From Spirochaetota bacterium (GTDB taxonomy: Bacteria; Spirochaetota; UBA4802; UBA5550): DNA of 32,486 bases. Location of the stretch: assembly GCA_025457915.1 (NCBI GenBank), contig JALOTL010000030.1, positions 1-32,486 on the forward strand, given 5' to 3'. Every line of letters begins with the position of its first letter. The first letter of the stretch is position 1. The notes under the pieces were generated by a model. The model worked only from the letters and a program-made list of their open reading frames with translations, was not told the DNA's origin and made no database searches. Below are positions 3,963 through 17,062 of this stretch, piece by piece. The position numbers and the translations under genes were made by a program.

Positions 3963-6722
3963 TTATATGACAGCAGCACCCCTTGCGTCTCTTCTCTCCA
4001 GCTTGAGGGATACGACCTTTGATATGCCCGGCTCCTCCATGGTTACCCCGTATATGGATTCGCAGATGCTCATGGTTTTCTTGTTGTGCGTTACTATGAC
4101 AAACTGGGTGCCCCTCGCGAATTCTTTGAGCATTTTGACGAACCTGCCGATGTTTTGCTCGTCGAGCGGCGCGTCGATTTCATCTAGAAAACAAAAAGGC
4201 GACGACTTTGTCATATAGGTCGCGAAGAGGAGGGCTATTGCCGTAAGCGCCCTCTCGCCGCCGGAGAGAAGGTTGATGTTTTTAGGCTTTTTCCCCGGAG
4301 GCCTTACCATTATCTCTATGCCGGATTCAAGGACATTTTCCTCGTCAGCCAGTTCAATGGCCGCATCGCCTCCCTCGAAAAGGCGCCTGAATATTTCCGA
4401 AAAATTCTTCTGTATGTCCTTAAAGGTGTCGGTGAACATCTCCACCGATGTCCTGTTTATGTCCTCTATAACGGACAGGATGTCCGTCCTGGCTTTTTCT
4501 ATGTCCTTTTTCTGACCGATGTAGTATTCGAACCTTTTCTTTAAATCCTTGTATTCCTCAATGGCGAGATTGTTTATGGGGCCGAGATCCTGTATCTCCT
4601 TCTTGATCTTCTGGATCCCCTCCTGTATCTCGGCCTGCTGGGCGTCGTTCACATGGATGTCCGAAAAATCGGAGGCTTTTTTCTCGTATTCCAGCCAGAG
4701 ATACTCCTCTATGCTGTTCTTCTTGAAAATCAGCTCAACCTGGCTTTTGTCCAGGGTCCCTATTCTTTCCACCAGCTTTCCGAGCTCATCCTCGTCCTTT
4801 CTGCTCATGCTCTTCCTGCTGACTATGCACTCATCTATTTCGCGCCTTTTCTCCGTGAACTCGGATATGCTTTTCATCAGCGACTGGCTTTTCTCGCTGA
4901 ACTCTACGAGTTTGTGCTCCCATTCGTCTATTTCCCTCGAAAGATTGCCGATGATCTCCTCGGAGCGCCTGGTGTCCTCAAGGTGGTTCTCGATCTGCTT
5001 TTCAACGTCCTTGATCTGGACGAAAAGCGACTGGATGTGCTTTTCAATCCAGTTGCTTTCATTTTCGTTCCTGGAGAGGTCCTTCTCGACCCTCGTGATC
5101 ATTTCGTTGATGTCCTCCAGCCCCTTCTGTTCGTTCTGGATATGCTCCTCGGTGGCCGCAATGTCGGACCTGAGTTCTTCAACGGACCTGACTTCGGCCC
5201 CTATCTTGTTATCCAGCCCCTCCTTCTCCGCGTATATGCCGGTCTTGTCGAAAAGGATGGCCCTGAAGCCGTCCTCGAATTGTTCGAATTTATTTATGTC
5301 CTCCCTCAGGCCCTGGAGGTCCATGGACCCAAGCGAAGCCGATGCCTCTTCCGCGAGTCCCGATTCAATCTGGGAAACCGTTCTGGATAGAAGGGATTCC
5401 ATGGAGATTATCCTTTCATTTATTCTCTCCCTGACCTCCAGCCTTTCGGACTCGGACCCGGCCAGCTCGGCCTTCTTTCTTTCTATGGCGTCTATCAGTT
5501 TCCTTATGACATCCTCGAGTTCGTCCCTGTACTTTTTGAGTTTGCCCTCAGAGTCCTTGATCCTGCCCTTGTTGTCTTCTATCCTGTCTCTCGATTTATG
5601 TATGGAATCGATCTTCCTTTTCCTGGACTCAAAAAAGCCCTTCAGCTTTTCCCTGTCGTCTTCGATTTTCCTGCCTATATCCACCCTTGAGACTTCCGCC
5701 TTTTCCTTTTCCGAGATTAGACGCGTCCTGGTCTCCGACCTTTCTTTGATCTTTTTTTCGGTTGCGTTGACACGGGACTGCTGTTCCTTGATGAAGTCCC
5801 TGTTTTTGTCCGTTTTATCGTCTATGTCGTCCACCCTGATCTTGTAACCGTGGAGCTTTTTCTCAAGATCGAAGAGCTGGTGCTGTATGTCGTTCTTTCT
5901 CTTTTCATCCTTTTCGTTCTCCGAGGAAATGGATGAGACCCTGGCGGATATGGATTCCCTTTCCTTCCTGAGCCTTTCAATATCGGTCTGTATTTTGTCG
6001 CGCCTTTTCAGGATTTCCCTGTATTTGATGATATTGATTTTTACGTCAAGCTCCATGAGCCTGGACTTGAACGAAAGGTATTCCCTGGTTTTCTCCGCCT
6101 GCCTGGACTTGAGGTCCTTTTCCCTCTCGATCTCCCTGATGACGTCGTTGATCCGCTCGATATTCGCGCCGGTTTCAGTGAGCTTTTTTAGCGACTCCCT
6201 TTTCTGGAGCTTGTACCTGGATATTCCAGCGGCCTCTTCAAAAATATATCTCCTGTCCTCCGCGCTGGAGGACAGTATCAGGTCCATCCTGCCCTGTTCT
6301 AGCACGGAGTAGGCGGATTTCCCTATGCCGGTATCCATGAACAGCTTTTCAATGTCCTTGAGCCTGACCGGGGATTTGTTGATAAGGTACTCCGACTCGC
6401 CGTCACGGAAGACCCTCCTGGTCACGGTGATGGAATCGGAATCGATTTCGAGGACCCTGTCCGAATTGTCGATGGTCAATGAAACCTCGGAAAGGGACAG
6501 CTGCTTCCGCTGTTCGGTGCCGGAGAAGATGATGTCCTCCATCCTTTCACCGCGTATGTTTTTCGCCTGCTTTTCGCCGAGGACCCACTTGACGGCGTCG
6601 ACTATATTGGATTTTCCGCATCCGTTCGGACCGACTATCGCGGTTATGCCCGGCTCGTATTCCAGCTGGATACGGTCGGCAAAAGACTTGAACCCGAAGA
6701 TTTCCATTGATTTCAGGAACAT
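3963..6722 (-). CDS. smc: Chromosome segregation SMC ATPase, short form without a recognisable hinge
   Basis: Condensin ATPase that organises and segregates the chromosome. Both head halves are standard: LKSMEIFGFKSFADR at the N-terminus, Walker A GPNGCGKSN (31-39), the segment YSVLEQGRMDLIL (138-150) with IFEEAAGISRYK, then LSGGERALTAIAL (819-831), Walker B FCFLDEIDAPLDEQN (843-857) and the H-loop VTHNKK. The arms are long coiled coils of about 285 residues each (170-455 and 505-790). The protein is 919 residues against about 1,150-1,200 for usual bacterial SMC. The gap falls in the middle: only ~50 residues (455-505, including FRAILFDKTGIYAEKEGLD) stand where a ~150-residue hinge is expected. 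The ATG at 6722 fits the family N-terminus. No ScpA or ScpB gene is in the window. Confidence 0.93.
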   Translation of the reverse strand: MFLKSMEIFGFKSFADRIQLEYEPGITAIVGPNGCGKSNIVDAVKWVLGEKQAKNIRGERMEDIIFSGTEQRKQLSLSEVSLTIDNSDRVLEIDSDSITVTRRVFRDGESEYLINKSPVRLKDIEKLFMDTGIGKSAYSVLEQGRMDLILSSSAEDRRYIFEEAAGISRYKLQKRESLKKLTETGANIERINDVIREIEREKDLKSRQAEKTREYLSFKSRLMELDVKINIIKYREILKRRDKIQTDIERLRKERESISARVSSISSENEKDEKRKNDIQHQLFDLEKKLHGYKIRVDDIDDKTDKNRDFIKEQQSRVNATEKKIKERSETRTRLISEKEKAEVSRVDIGRKIEDDREKLKGFFESRKRKIDSIHKSRDRIEDNKGRIKDSEGKLKKYRDELEDVIRKLIDAIERKKAELAGSESERLEVRERINERIISMESLLSRTVSQIESGLAEEASASLGSMDLQGLREDINKFEQFEDGFRAILFDKTGIYAEKEGLDNKIGAEVRSVEELRSDIAATEEHIQNEQKGLEDINEMITRVEKDLSRNENESNWIEKHIQSLFVQIKDVEKQIENHLEDTRRSEEIIGNLSREIDEWEHKLVEFSEKSQSLMKSISEFTEKRREIDECIVSRKSMSRKDEDELGKLVERIGTLDKSQVELIFKKNSIEEYLWLEYEKKASDFSDIHVNDAQQAEIQEGIQKIKKEIQDLGPINNLAIEEYKDLKKRFEYYIGQKKDIEKARTDILSVIEDINRTSVEMFTDTFKDIQKNFSEIFRRLFEGGDAAIELADEENVLESGIEIMVRPPGKKPKNINLLSGGERALTAIALLFATYMTKSSPFCFLDEIDAPLDEQNIGRFVKMLKEFARGTQFVIVTHNKKTMSICESIYGVTMEEPGISKVVSLKLERRDARGAAVI

Positions 6723-13536: not shown

Positions 13537-14754
13537 ATGATGTACCGGCACGCCTTCATAACGCTTTTAGTCCTTTCGTCCGTATCCTGCACCAGCATAA
13601 GAGCGGCACGACTTGCGGGAAGCGGCGAAGCCGATCCGACAGTGAACGCGGTAAGGGTCAGCTTCGAGAGGGCCCTGCACCTGATGATGGTGAAGGCCCG
13701 TGTAAACGGCGGGAAAAGGCAGTATAATTTCATCGTCGATACTGCCGCTATGACGGCCCTGGACAGCTCGGTAGCGGGCGAACTCGGCATTACGCCTGAA
13801 ATCGAAGTCGACGCCATGGACTCCACAGGCGCCAGACGCAAGATCGGCATGGCCCGCCTTGAAAAAATCGAACTGGGGGGCGCCTCCGTCAGGAAAGTTT
13901 CCGCCGCCGTCTTCGACTTTTCAAATATCAGGCTCGTAAAAAGAAACATAGACGGTATAATAGGATCGAACTTTCTCAGGTTTTTCACCGTTATAATTGA
14001 ATACGATAAAAGGACGATAACACTGGTTAAAGCCCCGTTGAAAACCGCAGACTGCATGGACTGCATCAGGATGGAATTTGAATCCGGCCTCTCCCATGCC
14101 TTCGCGCCGGAAATCGAATGCCTTCTTAACGGAAGGAAAACCCTCCTTGTGCTGGACACGGGATTCGGCGGCAATATCATGATGCCGATGTCACTTTACC
14201 GGGACATAAAGGGTCCCGGGGAAGACGCCCTGCGTAAATGCACAGGGTCCTCGGGAGGCGGGGCCTTTGAAATGACCGCGGCCCACCACGAGGCGGTGCT
14301 TCCGGTTTTTAAGATCGGCACCAGGGAATGGAAAAATATGCCCGTGCTTGTGGCTGAACCGGCCATAGAGACGCCGCTCCTGGGATACGGCTTCCTATCG
14401 GGATTCACGGTCTCGATCGATTACCCCAATTACACGATCCACCTGCGCCCGCGGGACGGAGTAATGACGCTGAACCAAAACGCGATATCCACCGGCCTGA
14501 AGATCTCAAGAAAAAACAACGGTGAGACCGTCATATGCGGGTTTATGGAAAATTCCCCGGCCCACAAAAGCGGAATCGCAATCGGCGACCTGGTGATGGA
14601 AATTAACGGAAGGCAGGCGGCAGTGCTGGACTTTACGGTATTGAAAACCATGATGGACGACGGTTCGGCCGCCGTCCTTGATATAAAGGTAAAAAGGGCC
14701 GGTAGAATCCGCCGGTTCACGATCAAAAAAGAAAAGATCTTCAACAACAACTAA
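13537..14754 (+). CDS. Tandem retropepsin-like aspartyl protease with PDZ domain
   Basis: Predicted envelope protease (405 aa). The N-terminus MMYRHAFITLLVLSSVSC is a signal peptide with a possible, weak lipobox at Cys18. Two retropepsin-like repeats follow: the first has FIVDTAAMTALD (Asp68) with its partner segment DGIIGSNFLRFFTVIIEYDKR, the second has LLVLDTGFGGNIM (Asp207) with ETPLLGYGFLSGFTVSIDY. Each resembles half of an aspartic protease site, so one chain may supply both aspartates. A C-terminal PDZ domain (about 315-400: FMENSPAHKSGIAIGDLVMEINGR) probably binds peptide ends. In the first motif DTG reads DTA, which may weaken catalysis. It has its own promoter and is followed after 19 nt by the YihY gene, suggesting a joint envelope function. 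Confidence 0.85.
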   Translation: MMYRHAFITLLVLSSVSCTSIRAARLAGSGEADPTVNAVRVSFERALHLMMVKARVNGGKRQYNFIVDTAAMTALDSSVAGELGITPEIEVDAMDSTGARRKIGMARLEKIELGGASVRKVSAAVFDFSNIRLVKRNIDGIIGSNFLRFFTVIIEYDKRTITLVKAPLKTADCMDCIRMEFESGLSHAFAPEIECLLNGRKTLLVLDTGFGGNIMMPMSLYRDIKGPGEDALRKCTGSSGGGAFEMTAAHHEAVLPVFKIGTREWKNMPVLVAEPAIETPLLGYGFLSGFTVSIDYPNYTIHLRPRDGVMTLNQNAISTGLKISRKNNGETVICGFMENSPAHKSGIAIGDLVMEINGRQAAVLDFTVLKTMMDDGSAAVLDIKVKRAGRIRRFTIKKEKIFNNN

Positions 14755-14773: not shown

Positions 14774-17062
14774 ATGCCAGTAAAACCTTCAGTTTCAGGT
14801 AAAGGCTCCGGATTAAAAATCTGGATGAAAGAGAGGGCCGGGATCATCAGGGAGCACCTGCTTGGAATATATCACGGCCACAGGGTATACGGAAAGACCG
14901 TTGATAAAATAGTAAACGCATTGAAAATAATCGCGGTCTCCACGCGCAAATTCATGGGTGACGACTGCCTTACCAAGGCTTCGTCAATAGCCTATACGGT
15001 CATAGTTTCACTAATCCCGACGCTGACGGTCATCCTCACCTTTTACTCCATTTTCACCGGCGCCGAAGGAAAAAAGGACGAGCTGTTCGCGGTGATATCG
15101 CAATTCATGATCGACCACAACATCAAGATCAACATAGATCCGATATTCGCGGCGATATCCGGACTGATAGACAACGCGGCCTCCATAGGAGGGATCGGCG
15201 CGGCGGTCATGGTTTTTTCGGCCACCGCCATGCTTAGATCCATGGAAAAGTCCTTCAACGACATCTGGAAGGTTTTCAAAAGCAGGCCTATCCTGATGAA
15301 GATAATTTATTACTGGGCGGCCCTGACCCTCGGCCCGCTGATGCTTATAGCCGGAATGACAGTCGCCACGACCATGACTGAATTTTTTTCCGCACCGAAC
15401 TACAACTCGGTGTCCGCCACGGATAAAATCTGGGTGGTCGGAAGCAAATCGAGGATCATGTACTGGGATAAAAACGACAACAGGTTCAGGAAACTTCCTT
15501 CAGAAAGGATAGACCTCGATAACCAGCGCGTGTTTTCATACGACCCCGCCAGGAAAAAATACGAGGAGCAGGATTCCCGGATAGACAAGATTGAATTCAA
15601 GAAAAAGAAATTCTACGGGGTCCAGTTCATGGGGGAAAAGGGATGGATCGTGGGAGAAGACGGATTAATACTCTCCACCGGCGACGGGGGCAACAGCTGG
15701 GAAATCTCGAAATACGGATCAATGAACCTGAACGACATACACATGGTGAGCGCAAACAGGGGATTCATAGCCTCAAACAGCGGCCTGATCCTTGAAACCC
15801 AGAACGGGGGCCGAACGTGGAACCCCAGGGAATTCCATGGAATAAATTCAAACTTCAACCATATAGCCTTCAGGGGGGAAAAGGGAATAATCACGGGAAG
15901 CAGGGGCGTTGCGCTTGTTACTTACAATTCCGGAAAAACATGGGACGCGCGGACCATACCGGAAGCAAAAAGGCTGGACAAATACGTCAACCTGAACAGC
16001 TCCTTCTTCATCGATGAAAACAACGTTTGGATAGCGTGCGACGACGGCCTGCTCCTGAAGAGCGTGGACGGGGGAACGACCTGGCAGCCGAACAAATACC
16101 AGGACGCAAGCTATTACACTCTTTTCTTCAAGGACGCGAAAAACGGCTTCGCCGCCGGCGGCAGGGGAATGCTTATATCGACAGCCAACGGGGGAAAAAA
16201 CTGGCGTGAAAATGAATTTCCGACCTACAGGATAAACAGGCTTGCCGCCGAGGGGGACAGGATCATAGCTGCGGGCGACAACGGTTTGATAATGACATCC
16301 AGGGACGGCGGGGAAACCTGGCAGGGACGCGAGGGAGGAAGCATAATTGCGATTCTCCTGAACTTTATAGCGCCCTTCGCGATAATCTGGCTCCTGTTCC
16401 TGCTGTCGTACATTTCACTGCCCAACACCAGGGTGCCCTTCAAGAACGCGGCCATAGGCGCGGCCTTCACCGGCACGGTATGGGTCATATTCATACTCCT
16501 TTTCATAGTATACATAAGATCATTCGCAAGGGGGACGTTCGCGGTTTACGGAGCGCTGGCCGCGATACCCCTCTTCCTGCTCATGCTTTACGCGTCATCG
16601 GTGATAATCCTTTACGGCGCCGAGGTCGCATATACGACCATGCACCCTGAAACGTACAGGAGCCTGAAAAAAGCCTTCGAGGAAAGAAAGGACATCTACA
16701 TATACAACGGTGTGGCGCTTCTGCATCATGTTTATGCCAAATTCCAGGCAGGTAAAGGAGCCTCGGGCATGAAGGAACTGTCAGGCATCGTGTCGATGCC
16801 TGATGAAAACAGGATCTATATCGATCTGTTTATTAAAAAAGGCCTCATAGTCCAGAAGGAGAATGATGAATACATGCCTGCAACGGTGCCGGAAAAAGTA
16901 AGCATATCTGAAGTGATAAGCAGCATCCAGAGGATCAGCTATGACATCCCGGACTCGGCGAAAAAAACAGAGCTCAGGTCGTCGATGTCCAAACTTCTGG
17001 CATCCATCGAGAAAAGCGGGACCAGGGTGATCGGCACCATGACGCTCAGGGACCTGATGTAG
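14774..17062 (+). CDS. YihY/BrkB-family membrane protein with inserted Ycf48-like beta-propeller
   Basis: 762 aa, against about 280-430 for ordinary YihY/BrkB proteins (inner-membrane proteins of uncertain function, once misnamed RNase BN). Membrane segments lie near 72-94, 136-155, 178-200, 523-548, 560-582 and 590-618. The family-typical stretch YGALAAIPLFLLMLYASSV and YGAEVAY are at 592-620. Between helices 3 and 4, residues ~215-520 form an insert with at least six copies of a blade motif like GxxxGxxGxxxxTxxGGxxW (GWIVGEDGLILSTGDGGNSW; GFIASNSGLILETQNGGRTW; also at 371, 418, 458 and 497). Those are Ycf48/BNR-type propeller blades. With a cytoplasmic N-terminus the insert would be periplasmic. 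The C-terminus (~640-762) looks like a winged-helix domain. GAGGAG ribosome site; operon with the protease gene upstream. Confidence 0.92.
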   Translation: MPVKPSVSGKGSGLKIWMKERAGIIREHLLGIYHGHRVYGKTVDKIVNALKIIAVSTRKFMGDDCLTKASSIAYTVIVSLIPTLTVILTFYSIFTGAEGKKDELFAVISQFMIDHNIKINIDPIFAAISGLIDNAASIGGIGAAVMVFSATAMLRSMEKSFNDIWKVFKSRPILMKIIYYWAALTLGPLMLIAGMTVATTMTEFFSAPNYNSVSATDKIWVVGSKSRIMYWDKNDNRFRKLPSERIDLDNQRVFSYDPARKKYEEQDSRIDKIEFKKKKFYGVQFMGEKGWIVGEDGLILSTGDGGNSWEISKYGSMNLNDIHMVSANRGFIASNSGLILETQNGGRTWNPREFHGINSNFNHIAFRGEKGIITGSRGVALVTYNSGKTWDARTIPEAKRLDKYVNLNSSFFIDENNVWIACDDGLLLKSVDGGTTWQPNKYQDASYYTLFFKDAKNGFAAGGRGMLISTANGGKNWRENEFPTYRINRLAAEGDRIIAAGDNGLIMTSRDGGETWQGREGGSIIAILLNFIAPFAIIWLLFLLSYISLPNTRVPFKNAAIGAAFTGTVWVIFILLFIVYIRSFARGTFAVYGALAAIPLFLLMLYASSVIILYGAEVAYTTMHPETYRSLKKAFEERKDIYIYNGVALLHHVYAKFQAGKGASGMKELSGIVSMPDENRIYIDLFIKKGLIVQKENDEYMPATVPEKVSISEVISSIQRISYDIPDSAKKTELRSSMSKLLASIEKSGTRVIGTMTLRDLM

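Follow-up and report, generated by a model that had tools for sequence, protein, structure and literature searches.

Gene and domain architecture

The DNA analyzed here (the window, 32,486 nucleotides) comes from a Spirochaetota genome and contains, at positions 14774-17062 of the plus strand, a single continuous open reading frame with an ATG start and no internal stop codons that encodes a protein of 762 amino acids (aa). The Pfam family PF03631 (Virul_fac_BrkB) matches this protein in two pieces (148 bits for the whole protein, E-value 5e-43, cut-off 33.7), and PSII_BNR (PF14870) matches between these pieces in four stretches (105 bits, E-value 4.5e-30, cut-off 27). The same arrangement was recovered in a profile search of the genome, with positions 2-141 of the BrkB profile at 14957-15385, positions 155-254 at 16328-16636, and the PSII_BNR pieces at 15566-16324, ordered and in frame between the two BrkB pieces. 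The first half of the BrkB domain ends around aa 201-212 (Pfam and NCBIfam), and the PF03631 match resumes at aa 520. The genome encodes one further, ordinary unfused BrkB protein, and its PSII_BNR matches are confined to the 14774-17062 gene. The features of the gene are as follows.

14774..17062, plus strand: complete gene for the 762-aa YihY/BrkB protein that contains the propeller (open reading frame, Pfam, same-frame orthologues)
14978..15052, plus strand: transmembrane (TM) helix 1, aa ~69-93 (hydropathy averaged over 30 orthologues)
15182..15244, plus strand: TM helix 2, aa ~137-157 (averaged hydropathy, as above)
15299..15373, plus strand: TM helix 3, aa ~176-200, closing the first BrkB half (hydropathy; Pfam/NCBIfam half boundary)
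15392..16330, plus strand: inserted, predicted seven-bladed propeller, aa ~207-519 (PF14870, Ycf48 structures in PDB, AF2 model and fold matches)
15422..15469, plus strand: putative degenerate blade 1, aa ~217-232, without an Asp box (read from the sequence; model confidence is low here)
15509..15526, plus strand: IDLDNQ motif, aa 246-251 (family consensus IDFDNQ), in additional sequence separating blade 1 from blade 2
15677..15700, plus strand: Asp box of blade 2, TGDGGNSW
15797..15820, plus strand: Asp box of blade 3, TQNGGRTW
15920..15943, plus strand: Asp box of blade 4, TYNSGKTW
15959..15985, plus strand: conserved basic segment PEAKRLDKY, aa 396-404 (alignment of 30 sequences)
16061..16084, plus strand: Asp box of blade 5, SVDGGTTW
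16181..16204, plus strand: Asp box of blade 6, TANGGKNW
16298..16321, plus strand: Asp box of blade 7, SRDGGETW
16343..16414, plus strand: TM helix 4, aa ~524-547, opening the second BrkB half (hydropathy; PF03631 from aa 520)
16448..16516, plus strand: TM helix 5, aa ~559-581 (averaged hydropathy)
16547..16627, plus strand: TM helix 6, aa ~592-618 (averaged hydropathy)
16694..17059, plus strand: C-terminal cytoplasmic tail, putative divergent Rrf2-like winged helix, aa 641-762 (profile A4 against PDB)

An assembly error, or two adjacent genes joined into one frame, can be dismissed with near certainty because the frame is equally continuous in about 30 orthologues from other genomes, and nothing was found in favor of such an artefact; only one genome (G004, L127:3689-5840) carries a broken version of the gene, split over three frames (166, 346 and 245 aa), which is either a decaying pseudogene or a sequencing error.

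The first-pass annotation had described a YihY domain in two halves within a continuous frame, separated between helices 3 and 4 by about 300 residues that comprise at least six blades. The open reading frame, the split Pfam match and the orthologues bear out the first of these statements, and both the YihY and the PSII_BNR models that had been proposed for a domain search match above their curated cut-offs. The size (~313 aa) and the blade count (six Asp-box blades plus one degenerate blade) were accurate, and the position of the insert agrees with the six averaged hydrophobic peaks described below.

Structure of the inserted domain

The six Asp boxes are located at aa 302, 342, 383, 430, 470 and 509, with a spacing of about 40 aa. 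When the insert was compared to PDB, the solved structures of Ycf48 and HCF136 were the best matches both for the profile (E-value 3e-27) and for the single sequence (E-value 2e-18). The AF2 model of the insert, built from a 12-sequence alignment, has a pLDDT of 74.5 and a pTM of 0.69, with poor confidence for the first ~28 residues (blade 1) and two loops; single-sequence AlphaFold2 prediction for the whole 762-aa protein yields a pLDDT of 38. Hits from a pattern scan of viral contigs served solely to deepen the propeller alignment. The best twelve Foldseek matches of the insert model are all Ycf48 entries (E-values from 2e-12 to 4e-10). In VIA-align, the model matches the structure of Ycf48 with the D1 peptide with a Z-score of 20.6 (245 residues, rmsd 3.3) and the Ycf48 entries in general with Z-scores of about 20 (243-251 residues, rmsd 3.3-3.6), scores that are tied with those of other propellers; the list of matching folds also includes carbohydrate-active GH74 enzymes. 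The fold class of the insert is firmly predicted from the model to be a seven-bladed beta-propeller. Given the tie among the VIA-align scores, the assignment to the Ycf48 type leans on the sequence matches and Foldseek together. The earlier proposal of a Ycf48-like propeller, for which structure prediction had been suggested as a check, is thus borne out by the PF14870 and PDB sequence matches as well as by the modelled fold, to which Ycf48 structures are the closest.

Membrane topology

Hydropathy averaged over 30 orthologues reveals six hydrophobic peaks, centered at aa 85, 145 and 183 before the insert and at aa 540, 570 and 604 after it. The insert lies between the third and the fourth peak and therefore corresponds to the TM3-TM4 loop. 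Across 30 sequences, the counts of basic (K+R) and acidic (D+E) residues are 8.9 and 4.7 in the N-terminal tail, 4.1 and 6.4 in loop 1-2, 3.8 and 1.9 in loop 2-3, and 2.0 and 0.1 in loop 4-5, and basic residues dominate the start of the C-terminal tail in the 30 orthologues; the short loop 5-6 (1.5 basic, 0 acidic) is uninformative on topology. The predicted layout is a six-helix domain with both termini inside and loop 3-4, together with the propeller, outside. The prediction that the insert is extracytoplasmic follows from the positive-inside pattern together with a layout of six helices whose N-terminus is inside, and is in line with the placement originally proposed. Separate homologues, which start with signal-like sequences, fit this placement as well.

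The C-terminal tail

A profile built from 18 tails (A4) matches the Rrf2 winged helix over its full length in a search of PDB (4cic, E-value 2.5e-6; CymR, 2y75, E-value 0.008). The Pfam Rrf2 family (PF02082) does not match the tail of the window protein, and the best sub-threshold score in a relative is 19.4 against a cut-off of 30. The tail is probably a divergent Rrf2-like winged helix. The tail is acidic where it aligns with the recognition helix (net charge of -1.4 on average) and lacks the RGxxGGY-like wing seen in 4cic, so that DNA binding by this domain appears unlikely. Unfused YihY domains from Pseudomonadota and from other spirochaetes are followed by the same tail, which hence should be older than the insertion rather than recruited along with the propeller.

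Relationship to known families

The protein shares both halves of the six-helix domain with the YihY/BrkB family (PF03631) and scores 108 bits with the subfamily model TIGR00765 of NCBIfam, above the cut-off of 73.15 bits. This model bears the title yihY_not_rbn, and an identity as RNase BN was accordingly rejected. The best NCBIfam match is PRK04214, 'ribonuclease BN/unknown domain fusion protein', which combines a YihY domain with a similar C-terminal tail but, unlike the window protein, has no space for a propeller within its 412 model positions; the score with this equivalog (NF003256) is 150 bits against a cut-off of 500. Judging from the profile matches of the tail, the 'unknown domain' of PRK04214-type proteins resembles an acidic and divergent winged helix of the Rrf2 type. 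E. coli YhjD (TIGR00766) is covered by a related model that represents a different subfamily without a propeller (19 bits against a cut-off of 213.65).

Ycf48/HCF136 is the best match of the insert in both fold and sequence, the likeness being a seven-bladed Asp-box propeller that is extracytoplasmic (in the window protein, by prediction). In phototrophs, however, Ycf48 exists as a protein of its own, either soluble or lipidated, whereas the propeller of the window protein is embedded within a spirochaete membrane protein. The analogy with Ycf48 drawn in the first-pass annotation holds for this likeness but not for the role in photosystem assembly, which is not transferable because the insert scores far below the cut-off of the Ycf48 equivalog NF010237 (102 against 326 bits).

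Distribution and origin of the fusion

FlaA (PF04620), a flagellar protein of spirochaetes, was detected in 99 of 100 genomes from the phylum of the window and in none of 14 controls, in agreement with the assignment to Spirochaetota. Within the order to which the window belongs, the profile of the fused protein is matched in 39 of the 46 sampled genomes, and 38 of these matches include propeller sequence; two genomes of the same genus lack any match. Beyond this order, an insert is present at the same point in families f11, f22, f34, f38 and f41, although in f34 it has diverged, with the remaining BNR/PSII_BNR matches partly below the cut-off. The survey of lineages that had been suggested earlier thus places the fusion throughout the order and, beyond it, in five or more families. 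Unfused YihY proteins are found in families f9, f17, f19, f27, f36, f44, f49, f56 and f58. The TM3-TM4 spacer comprises 4-16 aa in the unfused relatives, as opposed to 320-399 aa in the fused proteins (~313 aa of propeller in the case of the window protein).

In a tree constructed from the membrane halves alone, 25 insert-bearing proteins lie on one side of a branch with 100/99 support. Because all insert-bearing proteins form one group in this tree, the simplest reading is a single ancient insertion in the ancestor of a large Spirochaetota lineage, a parsimony argument made on a tree whose root is not fixed. The fused proteins of f11 (L081 versus L084-L086) occupy two separate regions of the tree, which suggests duplication or transfer.

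Searches centered on four reference genomes from other phyla (345, 349, 80 and 40 genomes) revealed no fusion among the matches listed, in which propellers and YihY domains belong to separate proteins; in the two larger of these searches, the matches come from the best three candidates scored per genome. In a scan of named genomes, the loci examined encode separate propellers only. Scans of viral contigs detected no relatives, and among plasmids there was no record in which a single place covered 80% of the query. The combination of YihY and propeller appears from these comparisons to be an ancient, conserved architecture that joins two known families; no description of it was found in the literature searched, in which coverage of subscription journals was incomplete.

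Natural variants and gene neighborhood

One genome from the family of the window (G017, L126:7785-9188) encodes a syntenic orthologue of 468 aa in which TM3 and TM4 are joined by a short loop. The neighborhood is the same as in the window, with the MgsA side, a TonB-like gene, a GlmU-like gene and EF-G. This state is best read as a clean loss of the propeller alone because its congeners G002, G015 and G019 have the fused form. Brachyspira and its relatives (L096-L099, e.g., L096:3751-4218) carry a different insert of ~150 aa without a Pfam match in the TM5-TM6 loop of YihY, an insertion that is independent of the propeller but likewise affects an external loop.

The most regular neighbor of the fused gene is the convergent TonB-like gene. 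At a distance of 20 bp upstream lies a same-strand gene (13537-14754) for a protein with a PDZ domain and two domains resembling aspartyl proteases; its position next to the fused gene is not conserved in relatives. The gene neighborhoods of the fused gene and its relatives provided no functional clue. Elsewhere in the window, an SMC protein of only 919 aa is encoded at 3963-6722 and matches the SMC profile in two parts. LipL32-family proteins above the Pfam cut-off are present in genomes G003, G010, G055, G070, G079, G170 and G208, two of which belong to the family of the window.

Selection and conserved surface

For the six closest usable pairs, with the saturated distant pairs left out, dN/dS is 0.06-0.23 in the propeller, 0.01-0.06 in the transmembrane domain and 0.02-0.16 in the tail. 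The propeller is under purifying selection and evolves faster than the membrane domain. D247 and N250 of the IDFDNQ motif are invariant in 30 sequences, and the basic segment at aa 396-404 contains at least two K/R residues in 30 of 30 sequences. In the alignment, this segment adjoins the Arg-rich stretch RTTSRRL of Ycf48 and is a candidate counterpart of the arginine patch of that protein. The invariant residues and the basic segment belong to none of the Asp boxes and probably mark a working surface of the propeller.

Proposed function

We favor, with a probability of roughly 0.5, a function of the propeller as an extracytoplasmic docking platform on the YihY membrane unit. Under this scenario, a YihY/BrkB unit of the inner membrane with six helices and both termini inside would have gained, once, a complete Ycf48-type propeller in the loop that joins TM3 to TM4 on the external side. 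Since the two terminal strands of a closed propeller are adjacent, the domain could be nested on two short linkers above the membrane with the helices undisturbed. Much like free Ycf48 with its membrane-protein client, the propeller would then keep a periplasmic partner, for example a segment of an envelope protein or a factor that handles glycolipids, in place at the mouth of the membrane unit, while the winged-helix tail might make contacts at the opposite, cytoplasmic side. Ycf48 is reported to bind integral membrane proteins through its conserved Arg patch (PMC9145668). Against this reading stand the dispensability of the propeller in at least one relative (G017), the two genomes of the same genus that lack any match, and gene neighborhoods that carry no functional message.

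Three other functional explanations were considered, all of them less probable than docking. The foremost, albeit an unlikely one, is that the propeller serves as the gate or receptor of a transporter, binding a substrate (lipid, glycan or metabolite) and exchanging it with the YihY helices. The GH74 enzymes among the related propellers in the fold list are compatible with this possibility, as is the report that YhjD binds core-lipid A (LPS) and co-purifies with LptB (PMC3219608), but there is no established transport activity for YihY, and both G017 and the unfused relatives retain the membrane domain in the absence of a propeller.

Less probable again is a sensor, in which the propeller would bind a periplasmic ligand and signal through the helices to the winged helix, making the protein a membrane-bound one-component regulator. 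The combination of a ligand-type propeller at one end with an Rrf2-type winged helix at the cytoplasmic end is what prompts this idea. It is opposed by the fact that unfused YihY proteins, both in other spirochaetes and in Pseudomonadota, have the tail too, as well as by the features of the tail that make DNA binding doubtful.

The least probable of the three is passive insertion, whereby a loop-tolerant membrane protein acquired a propeller that merely folds and persists, a view with which the clean loss in G017, the several times faster evolution of the propeller compared to the membrane domain and the unrelated insert in another external loop of the Brachyspira protein are consistent. Against this stand the retention of the propeller across the order and at least five other families, the purifying selection, and the invariant residues beyond the Asp boxes.

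By analogy with E. coli YhjD, we infer for the docking platform a possible link to envelope lipid or LPS handling, although the LPS role of YhjD may not transfer because YhjD belongs to a different subfamily. A bolder version of the docking proposal, which we put forward tentatively and consider rather unlikely, is that the fused protein is a built-in machine of spirochaetes for envelope assembly or hand-over, with a Ycf48-like, client-binding propeller lastingly joined to a YihY unit that would help to fold, insert or export envelope components. If true, this would imply a general role of YihY/BrkB proteins in envelope biogenesis.

A conserved fusion with a propeller of a protein-binding type, predicted to be on the outer face of the membrane, provides a handle on the function of the widespread YihY/BrkB proteins. 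The isolated propeller could be used as a soluble bait for the missing partner, and the relatives with and without the propeller, including one clean natural loss, offer ready-made comparisons. More generally, the architecture described here indicates that a whole propeller can nest in a membrane domain and endure over deep bacterial divergence.
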